38,911 nucleotides of DNA. Origin: Actinomycetes bacterium. Lineage in GTDB: Bacteria; Actinomycetota; Thermoleophilia; Solirubrobacterales; Solirubrobacteraceae. A program made the translations under genes and the position numbers. Shown in pieces: positions 6,492 through 22,834 of the stretch. The notes under the pieces were generated by a model. The model made no database searches. It saw nothing but the letters and a program-made list of their open reading frames with translations, and was not told where the DNA came from. Location of the stretch: assembly GCA_021784895.1 (NCBI GenBank), contig JAJYHG010000143.1:1-38911 (forward strand), given 5' to 3'. The stretch's first letter is position 1. Every line of letters starts with the position of its first letter.

Positions 6492-7322
6492 TCAGTCCAT
6501 GAATGCTCCTCCATTTACCGCAATGGCCTCCCCGGTGATAAAGCCGGCGTCCGATCCAGCAAGGAAGGCAACAACCCGCGCCACATCTTCTGCAGTCTCG
6601 AGTCTCCCCATTGGCGTGTCAGCTATCCACATCGCCTGGACCTGCTGCGCGGAAACCCCGCGCAGCGCGCCTTCCCAGGCGAGTTCTCGGTCCTGCATCG
6701 GCGTGGCCACGTAACCGGGACAGACGCTGTTGACCCGGATCCCGTCTGCGGCCAGCTCGAATGCCATGGCCTGCGTGAGCCCGACGACCCCGAACTTCGA
6801 CGCCACGTAGTCAGACAGGTAGGGCACCCGTCCCTGCTTGCCCGCCATCGAGGCGGTGTTGATGATGGTTCCGCCGCGACCGGACCTGCGCATCACGCGG
6901 GCGGCGGCCTGCCCGCACACGAACACACCTTTGAGGTTGATCGCGAGCGTGCGATCGAGGTCCTTGAGAGTCACCTCGGTGAACGGCGTCATGTGCGAGA
7001 TCCCGGCGTTGGAAACCCAGACGTCGAGGCGGCCATGGGCGGCGAACACTGACTCCGCTACCTCAGTGGCCGCAGTCGCGTCGGTCACGTCAAGCCTGCG
7101 GCTGACCGCGTGAGCGAGCCCGCCTGCTACCGCTGCGCAAGCGGATTCATCCAGGTCGGTGACGACGACAAAGTAGCCGCGCGAGCCGAGCTCGCGAGCG
7201 ATGGCAGCGCCGATCCCCGACGCGCCACCGGTGATCACAGCCACTGGCATGCGGTTGCTGATCTCCGTTCCGGCTTGCCCACGGGGTGCCTGACCCATAT
7301 GTGCGCCCGACGGGTGACTCAT
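6492..7322 (-). CDS. SDR-family NAD(P)-dependent oxidoreductase
   Basis: The start is ATG 7322, sharing one base with the stop of the kinase gene (TGATG) and preceded by a GGAGGT site. A longer frame upstream is shadow sequence. The 276-residue protein is a classical short-chain dehydrogenase: GGASGIG near residue 33 binds the cofactor, VSNAG stabilises the central sheet, and YVASK contains the catalytic tyrosine and lysine with the serine just before. PGYVATPM and the C-terminal ITGEAIAVNGGAFMD are typical. An aspartate after the second strand (VVTDLDES) suggests NAD rather than NADP. Next to an FGGY kinase, the natural role would be oxidation of a polyol to a ketose before phosphorylation; that is inference from context. 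Confidence 0.92.
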   Translation of the reverse strand: MSHPSGAHMGQAPRGQAGTEISNRMPVAVITGGASGIGAAIARELGSRGYFVVVTDLDESACAAVAGGLAHAVSRRLDVTDATAATEVAESVFAAHGRLDVWVSNAGISHMTPFTEVTLKDLDRTLAINLKGVFVCGQAAARVMRRSGRGGTIINTASMAGKQGRVPYLSDYVASKFGVVGLTQAMAFELAADGIRVNSVCPGYVATPMQDRELAWEGALRGVSAQQVQAMWIADTPMGRLETAEDVARVVAFLAGSDAGFITGEAIAVNGGAFMD

Positions 7323-8800
7323 CACGCGACCTCCGCCGACAGGCGGTGTGACACCGGCGCGAGCGCTGTGCCGAGATCGCGGTAGAGCGCGTAGTGCTCG
7401 TCGTAGAGCTCGCGGTAGCGGTCGCGCGGCTCGTAGTCCTCGCCGAGCTCGACCAGCGGCGCGACCGCCCCCCAGCCGGGAACGCTGCCACTGCCGACGC
7501 CAGCTGCCAGCGCGGCGCCAAAGGCTGCGCCGGGATGGTGCAGCACCGGCTGCAGCGGAACGCCCAGGACGTCGGCGAGGATCTGCTTCCACAACCGCGA
7601 CTCACTGCCGCCGTTGGTCACCCGCGCGCCTCCGAGCGTGACGCCGCACTCGCCGAAGACTTCGACGTGATGGCGGAACCCAAACGCAACCGCCTCGAGC
7701 GCGGCCCGATGCAGGTGGGCGCGACTGTGCCCGAGGTGCAGTCCAACAAAAGCCCCGCGCAGCCGCGGATCCTGAAGCGGCGACTTCTCCCCGAGAAAGT
7801 AGGGCAGGCAGATCACGCCACCCGCGCCGGGTGGCGTGGCCCCGGCCTCCGCATCAAGTTCGGCTAGGGGCGTGTCGCCGCCCGACAGGGCGGCCAGCCA
7901 GCGCACGAGGCTGCCGCTGGTGGCCATGCAGCCGTTCGGCAGCCAGTGGCCGGCTGGATGCGCGTCCAGGTACAGGCGCGAGTCGACGATCGCATCCTCG
8001 GTGACCACCAGGATGTCGCCGGCGCCACCGAGCTTGACCAGCCAGTCGCCCGCCGACAGCAGGCCGGCGCCGTAGGCGGAGAGCACGTGGTCGGCGCCAC
8101 CGACGACGATCGGCGTGCCGACACGCAGGCCGGTCTGCCGGCCAGCCTTGCCGCTGACCGCGCCGACGACTGCAGCCGGGTCGCGAACCGGAGGCAACAG
8201 CTGGGCGTCGATCCCAGTGCGCTCCAGAAGTGGCTCGAACAGCTGACCGTCGAGGCTGTAGAGGCCGCTCTCGATCGCCCAGTTGCGTTCCACGTGTGGC
8301 TCAGCGCCGAGCTGGCGGGCCACCCAGTCGTAGGATCCGGCGATCATCCCTGTGCGCTCGAACACCTCTGGCTCGTGGCGGGAGATCCACCTGAGCGTCG
8401 GAGCCACGGACTGCTGCGTCAGCGCCGAGCCGGTCAGCTGCACCAGGTCCAGGTCGCTAAGCAGCGGGCCGAGCTCGTCGATCTCCGCGGTCGCCCGCGC
8501 GTCGTTCTGCAGGATGGCGCGGCGCAGCGGTGTACCGTGCGCGTCGAGCGCGAGAACGGCAGGCACCATCCCCGAGCAGGCGACCGCATCCACTGCCGCC
8601 GGGCTGGCATGCGGGTCAGCGAGCAGCTCGCGGACCGTCCCGCAGACGCCGCGCCACCATTGATCGGGATCGGCTTCGGCCCACCCTGGCGCCGGGGAGT
8701 AAAGCTCGACCTCACGGCGGGCCGTGGCGAGCACCCCAGCGCTACCGTCAACCAGGGCAGCCTTGACGCCTGACGAGCCGATGTCGATCCCGATCAGCAT
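7322..8800 (-). CDS. FGGY-family carbohydrate kinase (xylulokinase-like)
   Basis: I use ATG 8800, where the protein opens with MLIGIDIGSSGVKAALVDG, the phosphate-1 motif of the actin-like sugar kinases. The upstream extension in the same frame lacks homology-like features. The protein has 492 residues, the standard FGGY length. VVGGADHVLSAYGAG holds the catalytic aspartate region, and VTNGGSESRLWKQILADVLG is the C-terminal FGGY signature. The enzyme should transfer phosphate from ATP to a ketopentose or related sugar in the cytoplasm. It starts four bases after the BtpA-family gene and overlaps the SDR gene, indicating one transcript. The substrate may be xylulose, ribulose, a tetrulose or another ketose; sequence alone does not decide. 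Confidence 0.9.
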   Translation of the reverse strand: MLIGIDIGSSGVKAALVDGSAGVLATARREVELYSPAPGWAEADPDQWWRGVCGTVRELLADPHASPAAVDAVACSGMVPAVLALDAHGTPLRRAILQNDARATAEIDELGPLLSDLDLVQLTGSALTQQSVAPTLRWISRHEPEVFERTGMIAGSYDWVARQLGAEPHVERNWAIESGLYSLDGQLFEPLLERTGIDAQLLPPVRDPAAVVGAVSGKAGRQTGLRVGTPIVVGGADHVLSAYGAGLLSAGDWLVKLGGAGDILVVTEDAIVDSRLYLDAHPAGHWLPNGCMATSGSLVRWLAALSGGDTPLAELDAEAGATPPGAGGVICLPYFLGEKSPLQDPRLRGAFVGLHLGHSRAHLHRAALEAVAFGFRHHVEVFGECGVTLGGARVTNGGSESRLWKQILADVLGVPLQPVLHHPGAAFGAALAAGVGSGSVPGWGAVAPLVELGEDYEPRDRYRELYDEHYALYRDLGTALAPVSHRLSAEVA

Positions 8801-8804
8801 CCGG

Positions 8805-9617
8805 TCAGGCGATCCCGACTGCGCGTGCCTCGTCGACGAAGCGAACGGCACGCTCGCGATCGACCGGATTCCAGGTGTAACCGTCCACCTTCAGGTCGCT
8901 GCCAACGATGCAACCGTCAGCGACACGCAGGTAATCCGCGATCGTGTCCGCCTTGGCGCCGGTGTTGAGCAGCACCGGAACCTCCTCCGGGACCGCCTCG
9001 CGCACCTCCTCGAGCAGATCCCGTCCGGGGTCGGCGCCGGCCATCGGCCCCGATACGAGAATCGCGTCGGCCAAGCTGGAGACCACCGCCGACCGGGCGA
9101 CCTGCGCCGCCGTGCGCCGGCCGATGGGCGAGGCGAACTCCGGTGTGATGTTCATGAAGACCGCGAGCTCATCCACGTCCAAGCGCCGGCGCTCGCGTAG
9201 CACATGCGCGGCGTCGCCCTGCCACAGGCCCATGTCAGACTCCCAGGCGCCAGTCAGCACCTCCCGCATGAAGCGCGCACCTGTCGCGACGCCGATCGCC
9301 AGCGCGCAGCGAGCGTCCCACAGGAAGTCGACGCCGAACGGGTGACCGTACGGCATGCACTCGGTCACGACCCGCGTCATCACCGCAGCCGACTCCGGGC
9401 CCGCGCGCAGCTCGTATGGGCGATCGCCTTCATTGCAGAAGAGAAAGCCGTCAAAGCCCGCCTCGATCAGGATCTCGAGATCGCGCTTGACCGAGCTGAC
9501 CAGGCCCCCGACACCAGCGGCAGCGTCGTACAGTGGTGTTCCGGGCAGAGGCGGCACGTGCACCATCGCGATCAACGGCTTGGGGCGATCGAAGATACGG
9601 TCGAAGCGGGTGCTCAT
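8805..9617 (-). CDS. BtpA/SgcQ-family TIM-barrel protein
   Basis: A 270-residue protein opening with LIAMVHVPPLPGTPLYD, the hallmark of the BtpA/SgcQ family, and containing GFDGFLFCNEGDRPY, ADAILVSGPMAG and VPVLLNTGAK, as expected for successive strands of a TIM barrel. BtpA was first named for an effect on photosystem I assembly in cyanobacteria. In other bacteria relatives such as SgcQ sit in sugar-catabolic gene clusters, and their chemistry is poorly defined. Here it lies directly between a DeoR regulator (its ATG abuts the DeoR stop) and an FGGY kinase, supporting a sugar-catabolic role, possibly an aldolase or isomerase-like step. That function is inference; the family call is solid. 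Confidence 0.85.
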   Translation of the reverse strand: MSTRFDRIFDRPKPLIAMVHVPPLPGTPLYDAAAGVGGLVSSVKRDLEILIEAGFDGFLFCNEGDRPYELRAGPESAAVMTRVVTECMPYGHPFGVDFLWDARCALAIGVATGARFMREVLTGAWESDMGLWQGDAAHVLRERRRLDVDELAVFMNITPEFASPIGRRTAAQVARSAVVSSLADAILVSGPMAGADPGRDLLEEVREAVPEEVPVLLNTGAKADTIADYLRVADGCIVGSDLKVDGYTWNPVDRERAVRFVDEARAVGIA

Positions 9618-10394
9618 TCAGGCCTCCAGGGGTGTTACCGTGACAACTTCGACGCCCGCCTCACGGGCGGCCTCGAGTGTCGGATGATCGGGCGGCGCGT
9701 CGGAGATCAACACGTCGGCGGTGGTGAGCGGCGCCACCGTCGCGAGACAGATCCGCTCGAGCTTGGATGCATCAGCCAGCGCGACGCAGCGCGTCGAGGC
9801 AGCTATCGCCGCGCGCTTGATGCGCGCGTCGTCAAGGCTGTACTCGGTGAAGCCCTTCTCCGGGTGGACGCCACCGACGCCAAGGAACAGCACATCGCAA
9901 TTGAGCTCAGCGAACGTGCGCTCGGGTCCCGCCCCGATCAGGCTGAGCTCGCCCGGTCTGACCTCTCCGCCGCACAGGATCACGCGCATGCTGGGCTCGC
10001 TGGAGAGCTCAACCGCAGCGCGGACATTCGCCGTGATCACCGTCAGGCCAGCCCGGTTGCGCAGCACCCGCGCGAGCTCCAGCGCCGTACTGCCCACGTC
10101 GAGGATCGCGGTCTCACCGAATTCCACGTACGCAGATGCCGCCTCAGCGATAGCCCTTTTAGCCTCCTGCGCCTCCACCACCCGGCTCGCGAACGGCGGC
10201 TCATAGCTGCGGCTCACAGTGGAGATCGCACCGCCGATCACGCGCCTTGTGAGCCCAGCGGACTCGAGCGTTTCCAGGTCCCGGCGGATGGTCATCTCCG
10301 AGACCTCGAAATGCTCCGCCAGCTCAGAAATCCGCACCTTCCCGCGCTGAGCCACCAGAGCCTGAATCTCGGTCCGGCGCTCACGCGTGGTCAT
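9618..10394 (-). CDS. DeoR/GlpR-family transcriptional repressor
   Basis: A 258-residue protein with the DeoR arrangement. Residues 1-57 form the winged helix-turn-helix, including RERRTEIQALVAQRGKVRIS and VSEMTIRRDLETLE. The rest is an ISOCOT-fold sugar-phosphate sensor with TAILDVGSTALELARVL near residue 95, VITANVRAAVEL, ILCGGEVRPGELSLIG and DVLFLGVGGVHPEKGFTEY. Such regulators release DNA on binding a phosphorylated sugar. It is the first gene of the BtpA-kinase-SDR operon, so the inducer is probably the product of that kinase. Repeats just upstream at 10411-10449 are candidate operators. Confidence 0.93.
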   Translation of the reverse strand: MTTRERRTEIQALVAQRGKVRISELAEHFEVSEMTIRRDLETLESAGLTRRVIGGAISTVSRSYEPPFASRVVEAQEAKRAIAEAASAYVEFGETAILDVGSTALELARVLRNRAGLTVITANVRAAVELSSEPSMRVILCGGEVRPGELSLIGAGPERTFAELNCDVLFLGVGGVHPEKGFTEYSLDDARIKRAAIAASTRCVALADASKLERICLATVAPLTTADVLISDAPPDHPTLEAAREAGVEVVTVTPLEA

Positions 10395-10504: not shown

Positions 10505-11491
10505 TCACCCGCCGCGGGTGCCGGTCAGGCGCGCCGGGCCAGCGGCGACGTGGCAGGCTGCCGCGTGACTGCCGTCCAGGCAGCGCAGCACCGGCTCCGA
10601 CTGGCGGCAGATTGCTTCGGCAAGGGGGCAGCGCGGCTCGTACTGGCAGCCAGCCTCGGCGGCGCCGGTTGACGCGGCTGCCTGGGCGGCCGGCAGCCTG
10701 GCCGGCGGCTGGCCGGCCAGATCCGGGTCGGCCACCGGAACAGCGGCCGCCAGGGCGCGGGTGTATGGGTGCAGTGGCGCGTCGAGCACCCGCTGATACG
10801 GCCCCTGCTCGACAATCTTACCGAGGTACATCACGACAATCTCGTCGCTGATGTGCCTGACCATCGCAAGGTCATGGCTGATGAACACGTAGCCAAGTTG
10901 AAGCTCGTCCTGAAGGCGCACGAGCAGGTTCATGATCTCGGCCCGCACCGACACGTCCAGCGCCGACGTGGGCTCATCGAGCACCAGGATCTGTGGCTGG
11001 GCGGCGAGCGCGCGGGCAATGGCAACTCGCTGCGCCTGGCCCCCGGACAGCTCATGCGGGTGGCGGGTGACGAAGCGCTCAGGGAGCGCCACCATCTCGA
11101 GCAGCTCGGCTACCCGGTCATGCACACGCCGACGTTCGACCAGCGCGTGCACCCTCAGCACTTCCCCGATCGCCTGTTCGACAGTCAGCCGCGGGTTGAG
11201 CGAGGAGTGTGGATCCTGAAAGACCAGCTGGATCAGCCGCGCGCGCTCGCGCGAGGGTGGGGAGGTGTGCGAGTCAAGCGTGGCACCAGCAAGCGAGATG
11301 CTGCCCGCGGTCGGAGACTCCAGGCCGGCGAGCAGACGCGCCAATGTCGATTTGCCGCAGCCGCTCTCACCGACGATGCCCAGCGTGCTCCCAGCCTCGA
11401 GCGCGATGCTGACTCCCGACAGTGCATGCACAGGCGGCCGGCCGCCACGTCCGCGGTAGACCTTGGACAGCTGGTCGGTACCGAGGATCAT
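10505..11491 (-). CDS. Oligopeptide-type ABC transporter ATPase (DppF/OppF-like)
   Basis: ATG 11491 overlaps the stop of the preceding ATPase gene (ATGA) and has GGAG seven bases upstream; a GTG at 11500 is the alternative. The 328-residue protein has Walker A GESGCGKST, signature LSGGQAQRV and Walker B ILVLDEPTSALD. Its C-terminal oligopeptide-transporter extension carries cysteines (CQYEPRCPLAEAIC), typical of DppD/F and OppD/F. It powers uptake with the paired ATPase and two permeases of this operon. Because the operon also encodes AnmK and diverges from MurQ/NagA genes, the likely cargo is a muropeptide or cell-wall fragment. It is the last gene of the leftward operon. Confidence 0.92.
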   Translation of the reverse strand: MILGTDQLSKVYRGRGGRPPVHALSGVSIALEAGSTLGIVGESGCGKSTLARLLAGLESPTAGSISLAGATLDSHTSPPSRERARLIQLVFQDPHSSLNPRLTVEQAIGEVLRVHALVERRRVHDRVAELLEMVALPERFVTRHPHELSGGQAQRVAIARALAAQPQILVLDEPTSALDVSVRAEIMNLLVRLQDELQLGYVFISHDLAMVRHISDEIVVMYLGKIVEQGPYQRVLDAPLHPYTRALAAAVPVADPDLAGQPPARLPAAQAAASTGAAEAGCQYEPRCPLAEAICRQSEPVLRCLDGSHAAACHVAAGPARLTGTRGG

Positions 11492-12471
11492 GTGCTCCAC
11501 GACCCTGGCTCGAGCCAGCAGGCGGCCTGTTGCTCGGCGCCGCGGACCGACAGGACCGGCTCCGCCGCGCAGCGCTCAGTGGCGTACTTGCAACGCGGCC
11601 GGAACGGGCAGCCCTGCTCGGCGCTGGCCGGGTCGGGCGGGCGGCCGCCGATCTGCTGCAGGGTACCCCGATGCTGGGTGCCGGGACGCGGCAGCGAGCC
11701 CAAGAGCGCCGCGGTGTAGGGATGCGACGGACGCTGGAAGATCCTGCGCGTGGTCGCCAGCTCGACGATGCGGCCGGCGTACATCACGGCAACCCTGTCG
11801 ACGAGCTGGGCGACGACGCCAAGGTCGTGGCTCACCCACACCACCGCCATCCCGGTCTGCGCCTGCAGCGAGGCGACCAGCTCGAGGATCTGCTGCTGGA
11901 TGGTCACGTCCAGCGCAGTCGTCGGCTCGTCGGCGATGAGCAGCTTCGGCGAGGCGGCAAGAGCCATGGCGATCATGGCCCGCTGCAGCATCCCTCCCGA
12001 CAGCTCATGCGGGAACGACCCGGACACGCGTTCGACGTCAGCGAGTCCGACCATGCCGAGCACCTCAGTCGTGCGGCGGCGCGCGTCGCGAGCGTCATAG
12101 CCGTGCGCTCTGAGCGCCTCGACGATCTGGTAGCCGACTCGCAGCAGGGGATTCAGCGACCGCATCGGGTCCTGGTAGACCATCGCCACGCCGGCGCCCC
12201 GGATCTGTCGCAGCCGCACAGGGGCGGCCTTGGTCAGATCCTCGCCTGCGAACTCAACCCGACCAGCGAGTATGTCAAGCCCGGGCGGCAGCAGTCCCAG
12301 CACCGCGAGCATCGTCAGCGACTTGCCAGAGCCGCTCTCTCCCACAATCCCGACCTTCTCGCCCGCCGCGACGCTCAGGCTCACGCCACGCACGATCGCC
12401 TGGGATCCGCGCCGCCGGCGTACACCGACCTCCAGCGCGCCGATCGATAGCACCGGCGATCCGGAGCTCAT
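11488..12471 (-). CDS. Oligopeptide-type ABC transporter ATPase (DppD/OppD-like)
   Basis: A 327-residue ATPase with Walker [11 protein letters not shown], the D-type signature [16 protein letters not shown] and Walker [19 protein letters not shown]. The C-terminal extension has the cysteine pattern [14 protein letters not shown] found in this subfamily. It pairs with the next ATPase to energise the DppBC-like permease. Its ATG overlaps the AnmK stop (ATGA at 12468-12471), so importer and kinase are translationally coupled. The ABC class assignment is certain; the cell-wall cargo is inferred from the gene neighbourhood. Confidence 0.93.
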
Positions 12472-13670
12472 GCGCGCTCGCTTGCTGTAGTGGCAAACAG
12501 CGGCGTGCGCACGACCAGACGTGACGGGGAGCGAGCGCCTGCCGACAACGTCAGCGGTTTCAGGCCGGGAACGATCGAGCCGAGCACCACAGCACGACGA
12601 GCGCCGGTGCAGGATGCGACCACGCCTGGCAGGCCGTGAACGGTGAGAAAGCCGATCACGGCCATGGCGAGCGCCTCCTTGGCGGCCTCAGCCACGCCGT
12701 AGGTATCGGTCGTGACGATCCGCGCGCGCGGCATGCGCTGTGCGATCGCGTCCATCAGCGCCGGGTTGCGCGTGCCGCCGCCCGCAGCGACCACCTCGGT
12801 GACACCATAGCCCCCCAGCGCCGTAGCCACAGTCTGCGCGGACACGGCGGTGAGGGTCGCCAGAAGGTCGCCTGTCGCAATCTCACGATCGCCGATGTGC
12901 CGCCGCAGGTACTCGAGGTGAAACAGCTCCTTGCCGGTGGACTTGGGCGGGGTGAGCTGGTAGTACGGCTCGGCCATCAGCGCGCGGAAGAGCGGCTCGT
13001 CGACCGTGCCACGGGCAGCGGTGACACCGTCGCGGTCGTAGGTCTCGCGCCCCTGCGTACGCCAGCTGATGGCGGCGTCGATCAGCGCGTTGGCGGGGCC
13101 AGTGTCGAAGGCGATGGGCGCGCGGCCCGGCGCAATGATGGTCACGTTGGCGATCCCGCCGAGGTTGAGCACGCCCCGAACGTGAGCGGCGCCATCCGCC
13201 AGCAGCAGCACGTCGATAAGGCTCGCCAGCGGGGCCCCCTGCCCACCCGCAGCGATATCCCGCACGCGCAGGTCGTGGACCACGGTCGACCCGGTGAGCT
13301 CAGCGATGAACGCCGCCTGGCCAAGCTGGAGCGTGTTCATGGCGCGGCTGCCCACAACCCAGTGAAAGACCGTCTGGCCGTGGGAGGCGATCACATCTGC
13401 CGGCTCCCCGAAAGCGGCAGTGGCCGTCTCCTCGGCAGCCAGCGCGAAATGCTGGCCGATCGCGGCATCGGCTCGGCAGACCTGCTCGAGCGTGGTGGCA
13501 GCAGGCGGCAGCATGACCGCCAGCGCCGCCCTGAGCTCCTCCGGATACGGCGTTGAGCTGTGCGCCAGTAGGTCCGCGGTCAGGCGCTCGCCGTCGAGCT
13601 CGAGCTCCACAGCCAGCGCCTCGATCGCGTCAAACGAGGTTCCCGAGATCATGCCGATCACCTTCAGCAT
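12468..13670 (-). CDS. anmK: Anhydro-N-acetylmuramic acid kinase
   Basis: I start at ATG 13670, which shares a base with the permease stop (TGATG) and follows a GGAG site; a TTG at 13673 is possible. The 400-residue protein carries GMISGTSFDAIEAL at the N-terminus, ASHGQTVFHW, RDIAAGGQGAPLAS, VLNLGGIANVTII and FDTGPANALIDAAI, all landmarks of AnmK. D189 corresponds to the catalytic aspartate in FDTGP. AnmK opens the 1,6-anhydro ring of anhMurNAc and phosphorylates it to MurNAc-6-phosphate in the cytoplasm. Most homologs read DGxD or DAID where this one reads DAIE, so residue 17 is a conservative change. Its place inside the importer operon shows that imported anhydro-muropeptides are the likely cargo. 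Confidence 0.93.
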   Translation of the reverse strand: MLKVIGMISGTSFDAIEALAVELELDGERLTADLLAHSSTPYPEELRAALAVMLPPAATTLEQVCRADAAIGQHFALAAEETATAAFGEPADVIASHGQTVFHWVVGSRAMNTLQLGQAAFIAELTGSTVVHDLRVRDIAAGGQGAPLASLIDVLLLADGAAHVRGVLNLGGIANVTIIAPGRAPIAFDTGPANALIDAAISWRTQGRETYDRDGVTAARGTVDEPLFRALMAEPYYQLTPPKSTGKELFHLEYLRRHIGDREIATGDLLATLTAVSAQTVATALGGYGVTEVVAAGGGTRNPALMDAIAQRMPRARIVTTDTYGVAEAAKEALAMAVIGFLTVHGLPGVVASCTGARRAVVLGSIVPGLKPLTLSAGARSPSRLVVRTPLFATTASERA

Positions 13671-14587
13671 CAACTTCTCCTGGTGCGGGGGTCCGTCGCA
13701 TCACGGAACCCGTCGCCGAGCAGGTTGAAGCCCAACACAGCCAGCACGATCGCTGCCGACGGGCCGGCGAGTGTCCACCACGCGATTCCGGACAGAGACG
13801 TGGCGCTGTAGACCATCTCGCCAAGCGATGCGGTCGGCGGCGGCGGCCCGAGCCCGAGAAAGCTGAGGCTCGCCTCGGCCAGGATTCCCCAGGCCAGCGC
13901 CAGGCTCACCTGTACAGCGACAACGCCATACACGTTCGGCAGGATGTGGTGTAGCAGGACCCGTGAGCGCGAAAACCCAAGCACACGGGCCGCCCCGACG
14001 AAGTCCGCGCTGCGCAGCGAAAGCACAGGGGCGCGCACCACGCGGACGAAGATTGGGATGTAACCGATGCCGATGGCCAGCGCGCTGTTCATGATGCCCG
14101 GCCCGAGCGCGGCGACAATCGCCAGGGCCAGCAGGATCGCCGGGATCGCGAAGATCACGTCGGCCGCACGGAGGATCACTGTCGAGGCGAACCCGCCTAG
14201 GTACCCAGCGGCGATCCCGCCAAGCGTGCCGAGCACGCCCGCGATCAGCGTGGCGATGCACGCTATCTCGAGCGAGACGCCCATCGCCTCAAGAATGAGC
14301 GAGAAGATGTCCCGGCCGAACTGGTCGGTGCCGAGCAGATGGTTGAGGCTGGGGCCCTTGAGCACCTGCGAAGTGCTCTGGGCCTGCGGATTGTGCGGGC
14401 TCAGGCCGGCGACACTGACGAGCGCACCGAGCACGACGAGGCTCACGAGAATCAGCCCTGCTCGCCCGCTCTTGGATATCCAGAGCGCACGCAGGAGCTG
14501 CGCTTTGGACCGGCGGTGTGCAGAGGCGCCCACCGCGAGCTCGCGCTGCGGGCCGCCGGCGGCCTCCCGTTGCTGCAAGCTGCTCAT
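13670..14587 (-). CDS. Peptide-type ABC transporter permease (DppC-like)
   Basis: A 305-residue inner-membrane protein. After a charged cytoplasmic N-terminus the first helix (AGLILVSLVVLGALVSVAG) is followed by a periplasmic loop with HLLGTDQFGRDIFS, the conserved DppC-type sequence, and then five further helices. FVGAARVLGFSRSRVLLHHILPN is the EAA-like coupling loop contacting the ATPases, and the end LGFNLLGDGFRDATDPRTRR is the typical C-terminus of this family. It forms the channel with the DppB-like permease encoded 10 bp upstream. Confidence 0.93.
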   Translation of the reverse strand: MSSLQQREAAGGPQRELAVGASAHRRSKAQLLRALWISKSGRAGLILVSLVVLGALVSVAGLSPHNPQAQSTSQVLKGPSLNHLLGTDQFGRDIFSLILEAMGVSLEIACIATLIAGVLGTLGGIAAGYLGGFASTVILRAADVIFAIPAILLALAIVAALGPGIMNSALAIGIGYIPIFVRVVRAPVLSLRSADFVGAARVLGFSRSRVLLHHILPNVYGVVAVQVSLALAWGILAEASLSFLGLGPPPPTASLGEMVYSATSLSGIAWWTLAGPSAAIVLAVLGFNLLGDGFRDATDPRTRRS

Positions 14588-14597
14588 GGCTGGCCGC

Positions 14598-15554
14598 TCA
14601 GCGGTCCTTGCTGCGCGGGTCGATCACGGCGCTGAACACGTCGGTGAGCATGTTGATCACCACGAAGCCCGCGGCGAACAGCATCGTGACACTTTGAACG
14701 ACCGGGAAGTCGCGGTTGTTGATCGCGGTCACCAGCATGCGGCCAAGTCCCGGCAGGACGAAGATCTCCTCGATGATGACCGTGCCGCCCAGCAGATAGC
14801 CGAGCTGAATGCCAGACATTGTCACGATCGGAACCAGCGCGTTCAGGAGCAGATGCCGCCAGACGACGGCGCGCTCGGAGACGCCCTTTCCTCGCGCGGT
14901 CCGCACAAAGTTCTGGGTGTTGATCTCGAGCACCGCCGCACGGGTGGTCCGCATGATCGCGGCCGCGATCCCGACTCCGAGCACGCAGGCGGGAAAGAAG
15001 ATCTGCTGGAGGTTCAGCCAGGTGTTGGCGAAGAGCCCCGCGTAGCTCTCCGATGAGGGGAAGTAATGAAACGTCGAGGACATGAACGTGACCAGAGCTG
15101 TGCCGAGCACAAAGCTCGGCACAGCAAGGCCGACGAGCGCCAGCGCCTGGCCGGCGAGATCACCGATGTGGCCGGGCCTGAGAGCCCCGGCGACGCCGAA
15201 GAAGACGCCGAGAAGCACGCCGATCGCGAGCGCCATGATGCCCAGCTCGAGCGTCACCGGCAGCGCCTGGGCGATCATGCCTGCTACGGGCTTCTGGCTG
15301 GACAGCGAGACTCCCAGGTTCCCGGTTAGCGTCGCTCCCAGCCAAGAGGTGAACTGAGACACCGGCGACTCGCCGATTCCATAGAAGTGGTCAAGCTGAG
15401 TGATCTGGGCGTGGCTGAGAAGCCCGGCGCTCACTCCCAGGGAGGCTGTTATCGCATTGCCCGGAAGCAATCGCAGGATCACGAAGATCACAACCGCGAC
15501 GCCAAACAGCGTGATCAGCGTGCTGAGCAGGCGACGTGCGATGGCTACGAGCAA
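14598..15554 (-). CDS. Peptide-type ABC transporter permease (DppB-like)
   Basis: A 318-residue six-helix permease beginning IARRLLSTLITLFGVAVVIF, the standard DppB opening, with LGVSLSSQKPVAGMIAQALP in the first half and the coupling loop FVRTARGKGVSERAVVWRHLLLNALVP. The C-terminus INMLTDVFSAVIDPRS is typical. The start is TTG 15554 with GGGAG about nine bases upstream. It lies 36 bp after the substrate-binding protein gene. With the DppC-like partner it forms the membrane channel of the putative muropeptide importer. Confidence 0.92.
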   Translation of the reverse strand: MLVAIARRLLSTLITLFGVAVVIFVILRLLPGNAITASLGVSAGLLSHAQITQLDHFYGIGESPVSQFTSWLGATLTGNLGVSLSSQKPVAGMIAQALPVTLELGIMALAIGVLLGVFFGVAGALRPGHIGDLAGQALALVGLAVPSFVLGTALVTFMSSTFHYFPSSESYAGLFANTWLNLQQIFFPACVLGVGIAAAIMRTTRAAVLEINTQNFVRTARGKGVSERAVVWRHLLLNALVPIVTMSGIQLGYLLGGTVIIEEIFVLPGLGRMLVTAINNRDFPVVQSVTMLFAAGFVVINMLTDVFSAVIDPRSKDR

Positions 15555-15590: not shown

Positions 15591-17156
15591 CTACGAGATG
15601 GTCGCGAACTTCAGCGACTGCAGCTGGCGGTTCGGTGGCAGCTGGAAGCCGTGCAAGGTGGACGGGAACACAGCGTAGTCATAGCTATCAAACAGCCAAT
15701 CCCATACCGCGTTGGCGGTGAGGTAGCGTGACACGGCAGCGTTGGCCGCCTTGAGCGCGGCCGGCGTAGTTGCCTGGTCGCTCTTCAAGAGCAGCTTCTG
15801 CAGCGCCGGGCTGCTGTAGCCGGCGGGGACGGCGAGGTTTGCACCCGCCCCGAAGTAACGGCCATACATCACGTAGGGATCTGGGTCGGCCCCGTTTTCG
15901 GCAAACGCGGCCTGGAAGTCGCCCTTCAGCCAGTCCTGGATGTAGCTGTTACCGGCCAGGTTCTGGATCGTCATGTGGATGCCCACGCGCGCCAGGTCAG
16001 CCTGGACCGTAGTGGCCTGTGCCGCGCTGGTCGGGTCGAGGTCGGTAGAGGTCATGGCCGTGAACGAGAAGCCGCCTGGATCTCCGGCAAGCTTCAGATA
16101 GGACCTGGCCTTGGCCAGGTTCTGTGTCGGGCAGACCGCCGAGATCGGCGACGACTTGTACGGGCCAAGCGGCACGGGGCCGACGGCTTGCCCCTGGCCG
16201 AGCACGGCGCTGGCGACCACCTGCTGGCGGCTGATCGCGCATTCGAGTGCGAGCCGGTTATCGAGGTTGGCAAGCGGCCCAGTCTTGTCCTGAAGCATGA
16301 GCGCGCGGTAGGAGAGGTCGAGCACCTTCTGGACCTTGAACGACTTGGGGAGGTGGTCGGCGACCTGCGGCTCGGTGAGCAGGCCCAGCTGCACAGTGTG
16401 AGCCTCGAGCGCCGACGCGATCGACTGCTCGGACGCAATCGTCTTGATCTCGATCTTCTGGATCGATGGCTTGTGGCCCCAGTAAGCCGGGTTGGCCGCA
16501 ACCGTGAACGAGTTGTTCGGCGACCAGCTCACGAACTTGTACGGGCCTGTGCCGTCGGGCTTCTTGGAGAGCGTTCCCGCAGCTATCGCCTTCTTGGAGA
16601 GCATGGCGAAGTTGATCGAGGTGAGCCCGTCCAGCACCGAGGTGTCGGGGCGCGAAAGCTCGAGCTTCACGGCGTACTGCCCGACCGGCACGACTCGCTT
16701 CATGGACGCGAGAAATGAGGCGGACGCGTCGGCCACCTTCGGATTCTCGGCCCGCTGCAAGGACGCCACCACGTCGGCAGACGTAAAAGTGGTGCCGTCG
16801 TCGAACTTGACGCCCTTGCGCAGCTGGAAGGTCAGGACGCGGTTGTGGTCGCTGAACTTCCAGCTCGTGGCCAAGTCCGGCGTGACCTGTAGCTTGTTGT
16901 TGAACTGCACGAGCGTGTCGTAGATGAGGCCCAGCGCCTGGAAGTCCAGGAAGTTGGTGACCACATCCGGATCCAGCTTCTGCACACTCGAAGTGTTTGC
17001 CACTACGAAAACCGGGCTGCTCTTGCTCTTCGCCGCGCGCGCCGCGCCGGTCGACGCAGAGGCCGCGCTGGCTATAGCGCCCGCCGCGATCGCGGCCGCG
17101 ATACTGCAGCTGATGCCGACGATCGGCCGCGATGGGCCCTTCCACAGACGTTTCAT
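15591..17156 (-). CDS. Extracellular solute-binding protein, family 5 (peptide/muropeptide)
   Basis: A 521-residue secreted protein, first gene of the leftward operon. The N-terminus MKRLWKGPSRP followed by a long alanine-rich hydrophobic stretch is a Sec signal peptide, probably cut after an ASA near residue 34; I see no convincing lipobox. The mature part shows family 5 landmarks: VQFNNKLQVTPDLATSWKFS, FQLRKGVKFDDGTTFTSADV and GTGPYKFVSWSPNNSFTV. It should capture the substrate outside the membrane and deliver it to the DppBC-like permease. A strong AGGAGGAG site precedes ATG 17156. Context with AnmK and MurQ points to a muropeptide ligand rather than ordinary peptides; this is inference. 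Confidence 0.92.
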   Translation of the reverse strand: MKRLWKGPSRPIVGISCSIAAAIAAGAIASAASASTGAARAAKSKSSPVFVVANTSSVQKLDPDVVTNFLDFQALGLIYDTLVQFNNKLQVTPDLATSWKFSDHNRVLTFQLRKGVKFDDGTTFTSADVVASLQRAENPKVADASASFLASMKRVVPVGQYAVKLELSRPDTSVLDGLTSINFAMLSKKAIAAGTLSKKPDGTGPYKFVSWSPNNSFTVAANPAYWGHKPSIQKIEIKTIASEQSIASALEAHTVQLGLLTEPQVADHLPKSFKVQKVLDLSYRALMLQDKTGPLANLDNRLALECAISRQQVVASAVLGQGQAVGPVPLGPYKSSPISAVCPTQNLAKARSYLKLAGDPGGFSFTAMTSTDLDPTSAAQATTVQADLARVGIHMTIQNLAGNSYIQDWLKGDFQAAFAENGADPDPYVMYGRYFGAGANLAVPAGYSSPALQKLLLKSDQATTPAALKAANAAVSRYLTANAVWDWLFDSYDYAVFPSTLHGFQLPPNRQLQSLKFATIS

Positions 17157-17335: not shown

Positions 17336-18604
17336 ATGACTGATAGCGCGACGCGTGAACGCGACGGACGGGCCGGCAAGGGGGAGCGGCTGCGCGAGTC
17401 GCTGGTCGAGATGCTCAGAAGCCTCCCGGAAGGGTCCGCACTCCCAACCGAGCGCGAGCTCTGCGAGCGCTTCGATGTATCCCGCGGGACGGTTCGTACC
17501 GTGCTGCAACGCCTCGAGGCAGAACGCCGGATCTACCGCCACCAGGGTCGCGGCACCTTCGCCGGGCCGGCGAAGATCGAGCAGCGCCTGGGACTCACCA
17601 GCCACACAGAGGAGATGCGGGCAAGCGGCTTCAGGCCGGGCTCGAAGCTGATCGACGTCAGCCGGCTCGAGGCACCGATTGACGTGGCCAGCGCCCTGGC
17701 GCTCCCGGCTGGCGCCGAGGCGCTCAAGATCGAGCGCCTCAGGCTCGCAGACGGAGAGCCGATCGCGCTCGAGGTCCTCTACCTGGACGCAGAACGCTTT
17801 GACGGGATCACCGGCGAGCTAGGGGAGGATGTCTCGTTCTATCAGCTGCTCCGGCTGGGCTACGGAGTCGAACTCGAGTCCGCGGAGGAGACGATCGAGG
17901 CCGTGATCGCGACGCCACGGGAGGCACGGTTCCTCGGCTGCGTGCTGCCAGCAGCACTGCTGCAGCTCACGCGGCTGACCGTCGATAGCCGCGGGCGGCC
18001 GGTCGAGTTCGTGCGCTCGCTCTACAGAGCCGACCGTTTCCGCTTCCGCCAGCACCTGCAGCGGCCGCGCGAACCGGGTTCAGACGCCGCCAGCCTACGC
18101 GTCGCCGCTGCAGCAGACGCCTCCGGCCTAGCGGCGGTGTTCGTCTCCGCGTGGCGCGAGCGGTACCGGTCCGTGGTGCCACACGACGTGATCGACGCGC
18201 TCGACGAGCACGAGATCGCAGACTGGCTGCGCCGTCTTGTGACCACAACCGACCAGACCACGATCGTGTGCGAAGCGCACGATCGAGCATTGGTCGGGTT
18301 CGTGCGTTACGGGCTTGACCCTGCCGACCCCCGGACCGGACACATCTACGCTCTCTACGTACACGGCGCGCAGGTCAGGCGGGGTCATGGACGCCGGCTG
18401 CTCGAACACTCCCTGGCGGCGCTCGCCGAGCGCGGCCACACCGAGGTGACGCTCTGGGTGTTTGAGGAAAACTGGCCTGCACGCGAGTTGTATGCCTCGT
18501 TTGGCTTCAAGCCGGACGGCGCGACCCGGATCGAGCCACAGTACCGGACACCGGAGATCCGCCTGCGCCGAGGCTCACAACCAGCAGCCGAGGCTCAGAG
18601 TTGA
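17336..18604 (+). CDS. GntR (HutC/UTRA) regulator fused to a GNAT acetyltransferase domain
   Basis: A 422-residue protein, much longer than the usual 240-residue HutC regulators. Residues about 16-76 are the GntR winged helix (LPTERELCERFDVSRGTVRT, then LEAERRIYRHQGRGTF). Residues about 85-245 are a UTRA ligand-binding domain with the family pattern EEMRASGFRPGSKL, EVLYLDAERF and RPVEFVRSLYRADRFRF. Residues about 255-412 are a GNAT domain: IYALYVHGAQVRRGHGRRLL includes the acetyl-CoA loop RRGHGR, and ENWPARELYASFGF is the usual last motif. UTRA relatives such as DasR and NagR sense aminosugar phosphates, which suits the neighbouring MurQ-NagA. The GNAT part may sense acetyl-CoA or acetylate an aminosugar or protein; no direct evidence favours one. 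First gene of the rightward operon. Confidence 0.9.
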   Translation: MTDSATRERDGRAGKGERLRESLVEMLRSLPEGSALPTERELCERFDVSRGTVRTVLQRLEAERRIYRHQGRGTFAGPAKIEQRLGLTSHTEEMRASGFRPGSKLIDVSRLEAPIDVASALALPAGAEALKIERLRLADGEPIALEVLYLDAERFDGITGELGEDVSFYQLLRLGYGVELESAEETIEAVIATPREARFLGCVLPAALLQLTRLTVDSRGRPVEFVRSLYRADRFRFRQHLQRPREPGSDAASLRVAAAADASGLAAVFVSAWRERYRSVVPHDVIDALDEHEIADWLRRLVTTTDQTTIVCEAHDRALVGFVRYGLDPADPRTGHIYALYVHGAQVRRGHGRRLLEHSLAALAERGHTEVTLWVFEENWPARELYASFGFKPDGATRIEPQYRTPEIRLRRGSQPAAEAQS

Positions 18605-19707
18605 GCCAGGCGGAGCTGGCGGACGGCGTGAGCATCGACCTCGCCGGCCGCACGCCGACGGCCCTGGCGGCCGCAGCCCGGCGCGCGGCGCGAGCACTCG
18701 CGGCAGCCGTGGCGGCAGGCTTCCCCGCAGGCGGCACGGTGGTGGTCACCGACAGTCAAGGTGAACTCGTGAAGATAATGGCGGGCTGGGCGTGCGTGGT
18801 GGGAGAGCGGGTACCCACGGCTACGCGCACGCTGTATGACCTCGCCTCGCTGACCAAGGTCGTTGCAGCCGTGACGCTCACCCAAGTGCTCGCCGAGGAT
18901 GGGCTGTGGAAGCTCGATGATCCGCTGGCCAGCTGGCTTCCCGGTGTCGGCAATCACACGATCACGCTGCGGGGGCTGCTGACGCACACCAGCGGCCTGC
19001 CCGCGCACCGCAGCTTCTACCGCCTGGTCGGTGGCCGGGAGGCTGTTGAACGCGCCATCTACGCTGAGGCGGCCCGCGACCTCAAGGCAGGAGCCGTCTG
19101 CTATAGCGACATCGGCTTCATCCTGCTCGGCTGGGCTCTGGAGAGCTGCGCACAGATGCCGCTCGACGAGCTCTTTCGCGAGCGTGTCGCCGAGCCGCTC
19201 GGCCTGAGCCGGACCGGGTTCAGGCCGAGCGCGGAGAACCAGCACCTGACGGCCGCCACCGAACTGGACGGCGACCAGCGACTTGAGCCCGGGCTAGTTT
19301 GGGGAACCGTGCACGACGGCAATGCCTGGGCGCTTGGCGGGGTTGCGGGCCACGCTGGCCTGTTTGGCTCCGCCGATGATCTCGCCCGCTTTGCGGCAGC
19401 TCTGCTGCGGCCCACGTCGCACCCAGTGCTGCCGGCAGCGTCGATCGAGGAGCTGCACCGGCCGCACGCGGGCACCCCACCCGACATCAGGTCACTCGGC
19501 TGGCGGCTGGACGCCAGCGACTGGGGGCCGTGGCCATCTCAAACCTTCTGGCACACCGGCTTCACCGGCGGCTCACTGCTGGTCGCACCGCAACTCGGCC
19601 TTGCCGTGGTGAGCCTGCTGGGCGGCGTTCATCCCAAGCGTAACCCCGGTCGGCTCCAGGCGCTGCGCCGGGAGATCCACCGCGAGCTGGCGGATGGGCT
19701 TGTATGA
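18601..19707 (+). CDS. Serine hydrolase of the beta-lactamase fold, AmiE (YbbE)-like
   Basis: A 368-residue protein starting at TTG 18601, overlapping the stop of the regulator (TTGA). It has all three active-site motifs of the class C beta-lactamase/penicillin-binding fold: S83-L-T-K86, Y168-S-D170 and H318-T-G320. The stretch VHDGNAWALGGVAGHAGLFG closely resembles the matching segment of Bacillus subtilis AmiE (YbbE), which removes the stem peptide from MurNAc, and of domains attached to NagZ-type enzymes. Between the regulator and MurQ-NagA, an N-acetylmuramyl-L-alanine amidase role is the best guess. Unlike secreted AmiE there is no visible signal peptide, so it may act in the cytoplasm on imported muropeptides. 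Confidence 0.85.
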   Translation: MSQAELADGVSIDLAGRTPTALAAAARRAARALAAAVAAGFPAGGTVVVTDSQGELVKIMAGWACVVGERVPTATRTLYDLASLTKVVAAVTLTQVLAEDGLWKLDDPLASWLPGVGNHTITLRGLLTHTSGLPAHRSFYRLVGGREAVERAIYAEAARDLKAGAVCYSDIGFILLGWALESCAQMPLDELFRERVAEPLGLSRTGFRPSAENQHLTAATELDGDQRLEPGLVWGTVHDGNAWALGGVAGHAGLFGSADDLARFAAALLRPTSHPVLPAASIEELHRPHAGTPPDIRSLGWRLDASDWGPWPSQTFWHTGFTGGSLLVAPQLGLAVVSLLGGVHPKRNPGRLQALRREIHRELADGLV

Positions 19708-21797
19708 GCGGTCCGGCTGACAACGGCCAGCAGCGCCAACAGAGCACCGAGGAGGCGCGCCCGGAGCTAGCGGAGCTTGACCTGATGTCCACGAGCGAGC
19801 TGACGGAACTCATGTGCGCCGATCTGGAGCGCGTCTCGCACGCCGTCAGAGACGCGCAGAGAGCGATCGTGCAGACGGCCGAGGCGGTGGTGGAAAGGAT
19901 GCAACGCGGCGGACGGCTGATCTACGTCGGGGCGGGCACCGCCGGCCGGCTGGGCATGCTCGACGCCGCCGAAGCGGGGCCGACATTCAACGTACCCCGC
20001 GGCCAGGTGGTTGGCATCATCGCCGGTGGCAGCAGCGCCCTGAGCGCACCGGTCGAGAACGCCGAGGACGACCGTGACCAGGGGGCCGCTGAGGTCCGCA
20101 CGCTATCGGTCACGGCGGCTGACACCGTGATTGGGATCGCTGCCAGCGGTCGCACGCCCTACGTCCTTGGGGCGCTCGAGGCCGCCAACACCGCTGGCGC
20201 GCTCACGGTCGCGCTGGTCTGCAACCCCGCCAGCGAGGCGGCCGTGCTCGGGCAGATCGCGATCGAGGCGCTGGTCGGTCCCGAGGTTGTGGCCGGCTCA
20301 ACGAGGCTGAACGCCGGTACTGCGCAGAAGGTGATCCTGAACATGATCTCAACCACGGTCATGGTCAAGCTTGGCAAGACCTATGGCCCGCTGATGGTCG
20401 ATGTGCGTGCCACCAACGCAAAGCTGCGCGACCGCGCGGTGGCGATCGTCAGCGAGATCACTGGCGCCAGTGCCGAGCAGGCACGCGGCGCCCTGGAGCA
20501 GTGCGGCTGGCAGGCCAAGGTGGCAGCGGTGATGCTGGGGACTGGCTGCGGCAGCACCGAGGCTGAGGCCGAGCTTGCGCGCCACGGCGGCCGGCTCCGA
20601 ACTGCGCTCGCCGCTTCCGCGGGATCGGGGCGGCAAGAACGCACGCGAGTCATCGGCCCGAGCATGCGGCTCGGCGTCGCGGCGGCGTTCGTCCACGGGC
20701 GCTTGATCCGCGGCGACGTGGCCATTCGGGACGGCCTGCTGGAGGCAGTCGGCCTGCCGGGGGAAGGCGTTGGGATCGCCATCCCTGGCCTGGTTGACGC
20801 CCAGGTCAACGGTTACGCCGGGGTCGATGCCCTCGAGGCAGACGACGAGCAGCTGATGCACATGGGGTCCGCGCTGCTGCGCGATGGCGTCACGGCCTAC
20901 CAGCCAACGCTGATCACGGCTCCAGAGCGAGACATGATCGCTGCGCTCAAGACCATCGCCAGGCTACCGCCATCGTCGGCCAGCGCGGCCATTGCCGGGG
21001 TGCACCTGGAAGGCCCCTTCCTCTCGCCGCAGCGTGCAGGCGCTCACCCCGCCGAGCATCTGCGCCTGCCCGACCCCCGGCTACTCGAACGCCTGCTCGA
21101 CGCGGGGCCGGTGAGCATGGTCACGCTCGCCCCTGAACTTCCCGGTGCGATCGAGTTGATCAGGCTATGCCGCCGGCGGGGTGTGGTGGTCTCGCTCGGT
21201 CATAGCCAAGCTAAAAGGGCCGAGGTGCAGCGAGCATTTCAAGCGGGCGCCTCGGCGGTCACGCACCTGTTCAACGCCATGGCCCCGCTCGGCGCGCGCG
21301 AGCCGGGCCTTGCCGGGACGGCACTCGCGGCGTCAGGGTGCGCGATTCAGCTGATCGCAGACGGCGTCCACGTCGATGATCAGCTGATCCGCGTGGCCTT
21401 CAGCGCGGCGCCCGGCCGCTGCAGCCTCGTGAGCGACGCGATCGCCGCCGCGACCCTCGACGACGGTGGCTACATGCTCGGCTCGGTGAAGGTGACCGTG
21501 CGGGGCGGGGTGGCGCGCCGCGATGACGGCACGCTCGCCGGCAGCACCGCGCCGCTCGTCGCCGGCCTCGGGAGGCTGAGGAGCCTCGGTATCAGCCAAC
21601 AGGACGCTATTGCGGCGGCCACCGAGCTTCCCGCAAGACTGCTTGGCCTGCGCAGCCGCGGCCGGCTCTGGCTCGGCGGGCCGGCCGAGCTGGTAGTGGT
21701 CGACGAGCAACATGCGGTCCGCAGGGTCTTCCTCGGTGGACACGAGATCGAGCCCATGCCCGAGCGTGAGCGCAGCACCCCGGGGGGGGAGCGGTGA
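19704..21797 (+). CDS. murQ-nagA: Bifunctional MurNAc-6-P etherase / GlcNAc-6-P deacetylase fusion
   Basis: One uninterrupted 697-residue frame joins two consecutive enzymes. Residues about 20-305 are MurQ: LIYVGAGTAGRLGMLDAAE, then GSSALSAPVENAEDDRDQGA. E90 and E121 have the same 31-residue spacing as the catalytic glutamates 83 and 114 of E. coli MurQ. Residues about 318-690 are NagA: Q367-V-N369, E436 in HLEGPF, H500 in LGHS, H521 in THLFNAM and D578 in LVSDAI. The intervals 64, 21 and 57 equal those between E131, H195, H216 and D273 of E. coli NagA. The protein should split MurNAc-6-P into GlcNAc-6-P and lactate, then deacetylate to GlcN-6-P. It overlaps both neighbours by four bases. Both halves look intact. 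Confidence 0.95.
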   Translation: MSGPADNGQQRQQSTEEARPELAELDLMSTSELTELMCADLERVSHAVRDAQRAIVQTAEAVVERMQRGGRLIYVGAGTAGRLGMLDAAEAGPTFNVPRGQVVGIIAGGSSALSAPVENAEDDRDQGAAEVRTLSVTAADTVIGIAASGRTPYVLGALEAANTAGALTVALVCNPASEAAVLGQIAIEALVGPEVVAGSTRLNAGTAQKVILNMISTTVMVKLGKTYGPLMVDVRATNAKLRDRAVAIVSEITGASAEQARGALEQCGWQAKVAAVMLGTGCGSTEAEAELARHGGRLRTALAASAGSGRQERTRVIGPSMRLGVAAAFVHGRLIRGDVAIRDGLLEAVGLPGEGVGIAIPGLVDAQVNGYAGVDALEADDEQLMHMGSALLRDGVTAYQPTLITAPERDMIAALKTIARLPPSSASAAIAGVHLEGPFLSPQRAGAHPAEHLRLPDPRLLERLLDAGPVSMVTLAPELPGAIELIRLCRRRGVVVSLGHSQAKRAEVQRAFQAGASAVTHLFNAMAPLGAREPGLAGTALAASGCAIQLIADGVHVDDQLIRVAFSAAPGRCSLVSDAIAAATLDDGGYMLGSVKVTVRGGVARRDDGTLAGSTAPLVAGLGRLRSLGISQQDAIAAATELPARLLGLRSRGRLWLGGPAELVVVDEQHAVRRVFLGGHEIEPMPERERSTPGGER

Positions 21798-22834
21798 GCG
21801 CCACAGGCCAGCGGATCTCCTCCGGCGAGCTGATGGCCAAAGAGATCGCAGAGCAGCCCGGCGTGCTCGAGCGGATCCTGCAGTCGCGGCAGCAGAGCAC
21901 TGAAGCTGCGCGCCAGATTGCCACCGCACAGCCCCGTTTCGTGCTGATCGCCGCGCGCGGCACCAGCGACAACGCGGCTCTCTACGCCAAGTACCTGGCA
22001 GAGGTACGCATGCAGCTTCCAGCCGGCCTGGTCTCACCCTCCGCGCTGACGATTTACGGCGCGCGGCCGGACATGCGTGGCGTGCTGTTCATCGCGGTCA
22101 GCCAATCCGGCCGCTCGCCCGATCTGGTTGACACGCTGCGTGCAGCGCGGGCACGGGGGGCGCTGACGGTAGCGGTCACGAACGCGATCGGTTCGCCGCT
22201 GGCGGACGCCGCGGAGATCCTCGTTGACGTGCAGGCCGGCAGCGAGCTCGCCGTCGCCGCGACCAAGTCCTACACGGCTGAGCTGCTGTCGTTGTACCTG
22301 CTGCTCGCCGGTGATCGGGCAGCCGAAGCAGCGGCGAGGCTGCCCGAGGCAGCGGCACGAACCCTTGCGCTGGCGGCCGAGGATCTCGTGGCGGCCGTCG
22401 CCGCGCCTTTGCGTCTTGCGCAACGGCTCGTCGTGACCGCGCGCGGATACTCGTACGCAACCGCGCGCGAGGCGGCGCTGAAGCTCATGGAGACGAGCTA
22501 CCTGGCCGCGATGGCGTTCTCCGGTGCCGACCTGCTCCACGGGCCGCTGGCGATGATCGACCGGTCGGTGCCGGTGATCGCGGTGGGCGGCGGCGGCCGC
22601 GGTGGGCAGGCGCTCGAGCCAGTCGTGACCAAGCTCGCCACAGCCGGAGCGCACATAGTGCGGGTGGGCGGCTCCGGGCCGGACCTGGCGGTGGCAGCGG
22701 ACACGCTACCGGAAGAGCTGTCGCCGGTGGTTGAGATCCTGCCGCTGCAGCGGCTTGCGTGGCGGCTGGCACTGGACCACGGTGTCAATCCAGACCAGCC
22801 GCGTGGGCTAGCGAAGGTGACACAGACGCACTGA
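21794..22834 (+). CDS. Double-SIS sugar isomerase, probable glucosamine-6-phosphate deaminase (NagB-II type)
   Basis: A 346-residue protein starting at GTG 21794, overlapping the MurQ-NagA stop. It equals the isomerase half of GlmS without the glutaminase domain: MAKEIAEQPGVLERIL at the start, the first SIS domain with AARGTSDNAALYAKYL and AVSQSGRSPDLVDTL, then ELAVAATKSYTAELL, and a second SIS domain with TARGYSYATAREAALKLMET. Stand-alone GlmS-like double-SIS proteins of this type act as NagB-II deaminases, converting GlcN-6-P to fructose-6-P and ammonia. Directly after NagA this is the missing last step of the pathway. AgaS-like or fructosamine-specific activity cannot be excluded from sequence alone. 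Last gene of the rightward operon. Confidence 0.85.
   Translation: MSATGQRISSGELMAKEIAEQPGVLERILQSRQQSTEAARQIATAQPRFVLIAARGTSDNAALYAKYLAEVRMQLPAGLVSPSALTIYGARPDMRGVLFIAVSQSGRSPDLVDTLRAARARGALTVAVTNAIGSPLADAAEILVDVQAGSELAVAATKSYTAELLSLYLLLAGDRAAEAAARLPEAAARTLALAAEDLVAAVAAPLRLAQRLVVTARGYSYATAREAALKLMETSYLAAMAFSGADLLHGPLAMIDRSVPVIAVGGGGRGGQALEPVVTKLATAGAHIVRVGGSGPDLAVAADTLPEELSPVVEILPLQRLAWRLALDHGVNPDQPRGLAKVTQTH

Follow-up and report, generated by a model that had tools for sequence, protein, structure and literature searches.

In the E. coli-type route of MurNAc recycling, AnmK, MurQ, NagA and NagB carry out steps that follow one another (PMC13041923). Among relatives of the bacterium described here, MurQ and NagA are encoded as separate polypeptides. 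The nagA gene comes immediately after murQ, in a different frame, in 18 relatives and 4 Acetobacteraceae loci, and in all 22 of these adjacent pairs the TGA stop of murQ overlaps the nagA start by 4 nt through an [A/G]TGA motif (ATGA or GTGA). Here, we analyzed a stretch of DNA of 38,911 nucleotides (the window) from a member of the Solirubrobacteraceae that is probably uncultivated, in which the two enzymes occupy a single open reading frame. The MurQ-NagA fusion appears to be a genuine joining of ordinary enzymes of which there is so far a single instance, which makes it a new architecture assembled from known enzymes and represented by one genome.

The forward strand contains one uninterrupted frame of 697 codons (19704-21797), which begins with ATG at 19704, closes with a TGA that ends at 21797 and contains no internal stop, as the initial annotation had described. 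Frame reading together with family profile matches divides the 697-residue product into a MurQ (MurNAc-6-P etherase) half (residues 1-302; 19704-20609), a linker with the sequence AASAGSGRQERTRVIGPS that lacks any in-frame stop (residues 303-320; 20610-20663), and a NagA (GlcNAc-6-P deacetylase) half (residues 321-697; 20664-21794). Matches to two curated families within one frame are far beyond what chance could produce. Codon-usage log-odds favored the fusion frame across MurQ and across NagA and were uninformative over the 18-codon linker, in which usage is non-coding-like in every frame.

The MurQ half scored 333 bits against NCBIfam TIGR00274, with residues 15-302 covering positions 3-290 of the 291-position profile, which exceeds the curated equivalog cut-off of 302 bits. 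The glutamates E90 and E121, which the initial annotation had cited in proposing a complete etherase, are located where it placed them and are invariant in 20 aligned MurQ relatives, in line with that proposal. A homology search matched this half to the solved MurQ structures 4s12, 4lzj and 1nri, and a Foldseek search with the full-length model matched the SIS fold of MurQ to 4lzj (E 7.1e-25). Residue 203, which falls in the conserved stretch TRLKAGTAQK, is Asn (AAC, 20310-20312), whereas Lys occupies this position in 20 of 20 aligned relatives and in the solved MurQs of the alignment, which leaves this half without a Lys that is conserved in MurQ. Such a replacement, together with the long and unplaced end branch (0.87) of the MurQ half in the tree, would fit a protein in which one half (most probably MurQ) is no longer catalytic and acts as a sensor or structural domain like the MurQ-related glucokinase regulatory protein. 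We consider this highly unlikely given that E90 and E121 are kept, that the score lies above the equivalog cut-off and that the half deviates at 13 of 98 conserved columns, which is within the range of the most divergent other rows. Furthermore, the operon would be sensible only with an etherase step, and a profile search of the genome found no second MurQ over the cut-off.

The NagA half scored 265 bits against TIGR00221 (residues 358-674), for which the curated equivalog cut-off is 225.65 bits. The residues on which the proposal of a complete deacetylase had been based (Q367, N369, E436, H500, H521 and D578) are all found at the positions given for them, and H556 is also present. Among 21 aligned NagA relatives, E436, H500, H521 and D578 are invariant, and His replaces Q367 in two and N369 in one. 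Homology searching matched this half to the solved NagA structures 2vhl, 7nut and 1ymy, and Foldseek aligned it with 2vhl (E 2.7e-24). Although the profile match begins at residue 358, the deacetylase is not truncated, because the native NagA of relatives starts, with MRLGV, at the residue equivalent to Met321 and because residues 321-697 modeled alone yield a complete fold, comprising a TIM barrel and N-terminal strands (pLDDT 93.6, pTM 0.92). The half deviates at 16 of 129 conserved columns, also within the range of the most divergent other rows, and no second NagA over the cut-off was found elsewhere in the genome by profile search. Judged by conservation, neither half looks decayed, and N203 is the single notable change.

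In the full-length model, from whose folding we left out a large mixed alignment that misplaced NagA rows on MurQ, both cores are confident, and residues 308-373 and the arrangement of the domains have low confidence (pTM 0.51). Foldseek returned both MurQ and NagA structures for this model. The low values at residues 321-373 are best read as the result of poor alignment, because the same residues form part of the high-scoring model of the NagA half alone. The linker is predicted to be disordered, and the full-length model leaves the relative placement of the domains undefined. A disordered linker, together with a methionine that aligns with the native start of NagA, would also be compatible with an open reading frame that is fused in the DNA and yields separate MurQ and NagA, either through internal initiation at the ATG at 20664 (Met321) or through cleavage of the linker. 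However, no processing site is known, and no clear Shine-Dalgarno motif lies directly upstream of 20664, which is not decisive because weak start sites are the rule in this operon; we regard separate products as quite improbable. The reading that we favor is a single bifunctional polypeptide.

At the junction, the window bases that correspond to the overlap motif of the adjacent pairs are ATGC, and the murQ and nagA frames agree. Beyond the residue equivalent to L302, MurQ extends by 0-6 residues in adjacent pairs and by up to 19 residues in solo MurQs, and the window has 18 residues between L302 and Met321. A stop near residues 303-309 would be typical of such tails, and the MurQ of one other genome ends in AASAG, like window residues 303-307. 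Codons 307 (GGA) and 308 (TCG) are each one substitution away from a stop. Along with linker codon usage that is not coding-like and the dependence on one draft genome (287 contigs) with no second fused case, these features are what would be expected if an error in the draft consensus, or a mixture of strains, had disguised separate in-frame murQ and nagA genes by replacing the murQ stop (e.g., at codon 307 or 308) with a wrong base. However, the error would have to strike one specific stop codon, and it would imply in-frame neighbors that are themselves unusual, given that 22 of 22 adjacent pairs are out of frame. By family match, the remaining genes of the window are full-length and undamaged, which also argues against such an error. 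A single 1-nt indel is a poor explanation because any such change in codons 300-321 would place the end of murQ 43 or 134 nt into nagA, unlike the 4-nt overlap in all 22 pairs. A wrong base in a stop codon is less easily set aside than an indel, but we consider it unlikely and continue to favor a genuine fusion.

Relatives with separate murQ and nagA have the same neighbors as the window (anmK, the SIS gene and permeases). In at least six relative genomes anmK adjoins murQ, most of the examined relatives from the class have a SIS gene 3' of nagA, and one genome encodes permeases beside murQ that are 52-56% identical to those of the window. Descent of the fusion from overlapping pairs, which had been expected from ATGCGGCTCGGCGTC in the window versus ATGAGGCTCGGCGTC in the pairs, was dropped because the trees disagree. 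A NagA of the same genus, encoded without an adjoining murQ, is the sister of the NagA half (support 94/96). Neither half nests among the overlapping murQ-nagA pairs, which suggests that the fusion may have arisen separately from them. As a separate observation, four loci from Acetobacteraceae and another proteobacterial bin, lineages distant from that of the window, have adjacent murQ and nagA that likewise overlap through ATGA, which suggests that the coupling arose repeatedly or was transferred.

A second MurQ-NagA fusion was found neither in more than 800 distinct genomes, mainly of the same phylum, nor in a plasmid collection, and a search at a stringent threshold detected none in 395 genomes from a further class within the phylum. 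Other phyla were covered to a small extent, through plasmids and a pattern-limited scan. Scanning genome contigs with six short patterns recovered separate genes only, and a scan of viral contigs revealed no relative. The plasmid collection contained adjacent and separately annotated murQ and nagA, e.g., in Haliovirga and Mycoplasmopsis. Two candidates were rejected: a seemingly in-frame murQ-TGA-nagA pair in genome G661, where the upstream open reading frame is nuclease-like and the alignment had extended by chance, and a long frame in genome G852 that holds NagA only. In the literature, our searches found no MurQ-NagA fusion, and the matches concerned separate enzymes. The initial annotation had known of no characterized enzyme with this architecture, and neither a fused homologue nor a description of one emerged here.

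The fusion lies within a forward-strand operon in which each junction is a 4-nt overlap. The first gene (17336-18604) encodes a regulator that combines GntR-UTRA with a GNAT domain. It is followed by a gene for a PF00144 serine hydrolase (18601-19707), which is of the beta-lactamase/PBP4B type, by the fusion, and by a gene (21794-22834) whose SIS product resembles NagB-II and the GlmS isomerase domain. The SIS protein scored 212 bits against NagB-II, for which the cut-off is 430, and is likely a GlcN-6-P deaminase. Divergent from this operon, the reverse strand encodes a solute-binding protein of family 5 from an oligopeptide-type ABC transporter (15591-17156), two ABC permeases (14598-15554 and 13670-14587), the anhydro-MurNAc kinase AnmK (12468-13673; PF03702, 359 bits), and two oligopeptide-type ABC ATPases (11488-12471 and 10505-11500). 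The fusion, AnmK, transporter, hydrolase and SIS protein together read as a cluster for the uptake and catabolism of wall sugars, i.e., peptidoglycan amino-sugar recycling. A GH3 NagZ was not found in the genome.

Several other features of the neighborhood were observed. The GntR-UTRA-GNAT protein is a second unusual fusion within the operon, and in 60 relatives its two parts match separate proteins only. In fungi, the GNAT protein Ngs1 senses GlcNAc (PMC5063960), which offers a possible parallel to this regulator. A gene related to that of the PBP4B-like hydrolase is also found near nagA-anmK-murQ in another genome. Downstream of the transporter-AnmK operon, the reverse strand (7322-10394) encodes an FGGY kinase, a BtpA-family protein and a DeoR regulator.

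Taken together, we propose that the window probably encodes a bifunctional enzyme in which a short flexible linker connects a MurQ and a NagA that are both complete and would have the activities predicted for their families. AnmK, from the divergent operon, would convert imported anhydro-MurNAc to MurNAc-6-P, which the N-terminal half would cleave with E90 and E121 to GlcNAc-6-P and D-lactate. The C-terminal half, with a metal site composed of Q367, N369, E436, H500 and H521 and with D578, would then release acetate from GlcNAc-6-P to generate GlcN-6-P, which the NagB-II-like SIS protein encoded by the next gene would convert to fructose-6-P. The initial annotation held that the product of the first half is the substrate of the second, and the family assignments likewise place the two halves at consecutive steps. 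We infer both activities from family assignment and catalytic residues, and we likewise infer what the transporter imports and that the 697-residue product is used as such.

The advantage of the fusion is probably a fixed 1:1 synthesis of the two enzymes, which would replace the 4-nt translational coupling of relatives. Fixed stoichiometry, which the initial annotation had considered plausible, would be a consequence of a real fusion, but in relatives the 4-nt overlap already couples both genes. A further reading is channelling, also considered plausible in the initial annotation, in which the enzyme would pass GlcNAc-6-P from etherase to deacetylase without mixing with the free pool, such that wall-derived sugar would be kept apart from the GlcNAc-6-P signal that controls GntR-type regulators. 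The fusion itself is the one feature of the sequence that speaks for channelling, and we view this reading as quite improbable. The fusion leaves the known chemistry and pathway unchanged. If real, it represents a natural joining of two consecutive steps of peptidoglycan recycling, an alternative to the gene overlap by which relatives couple both enzymes, and it could be used to ask whether fusion alters flux or the leakage of GlcNAc-6-P, which is a common regulatory metabolite.

The window protein shares with known MurQ (TIGR00274; 4s12, 4lzj, 1nri) its full length, both catalytic glutamates and 46-50% identity in the structural match, and it differs in adding a whole second enzyme at the C terminus and in having Asn for Lys at residue 203. 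Similarly, its second half resembles known NagA (TIGR00221; 2vhl, 1ymy, 7nut) over the full length, in the metal-site and acid/base residues and in an E. coli-like Q-x-N, whereas it is preceded in frame by MurQ and the linker and does not begin a polypeptide with a Met of its own. In comparison with the adjacent murQ-nagA pairs of the same class and order and of the Acetobacteraceae, the window keeps both genes and their order, with the SIS gene 3' as in most relatives, but the pairs encode two polypeptides in different, overlapping frames and the window encodes both in one. Relative to the E. coli-type AnmK-MurQ-NagA-NagB route (PMC13041923), the window lacks a detectable GH3 NagZ in its genome and has a NagB-II-like SIS protein in place of NagB, and by family assignment it follows the same sequence of steps, with steps two and three carried by one polypeptide.
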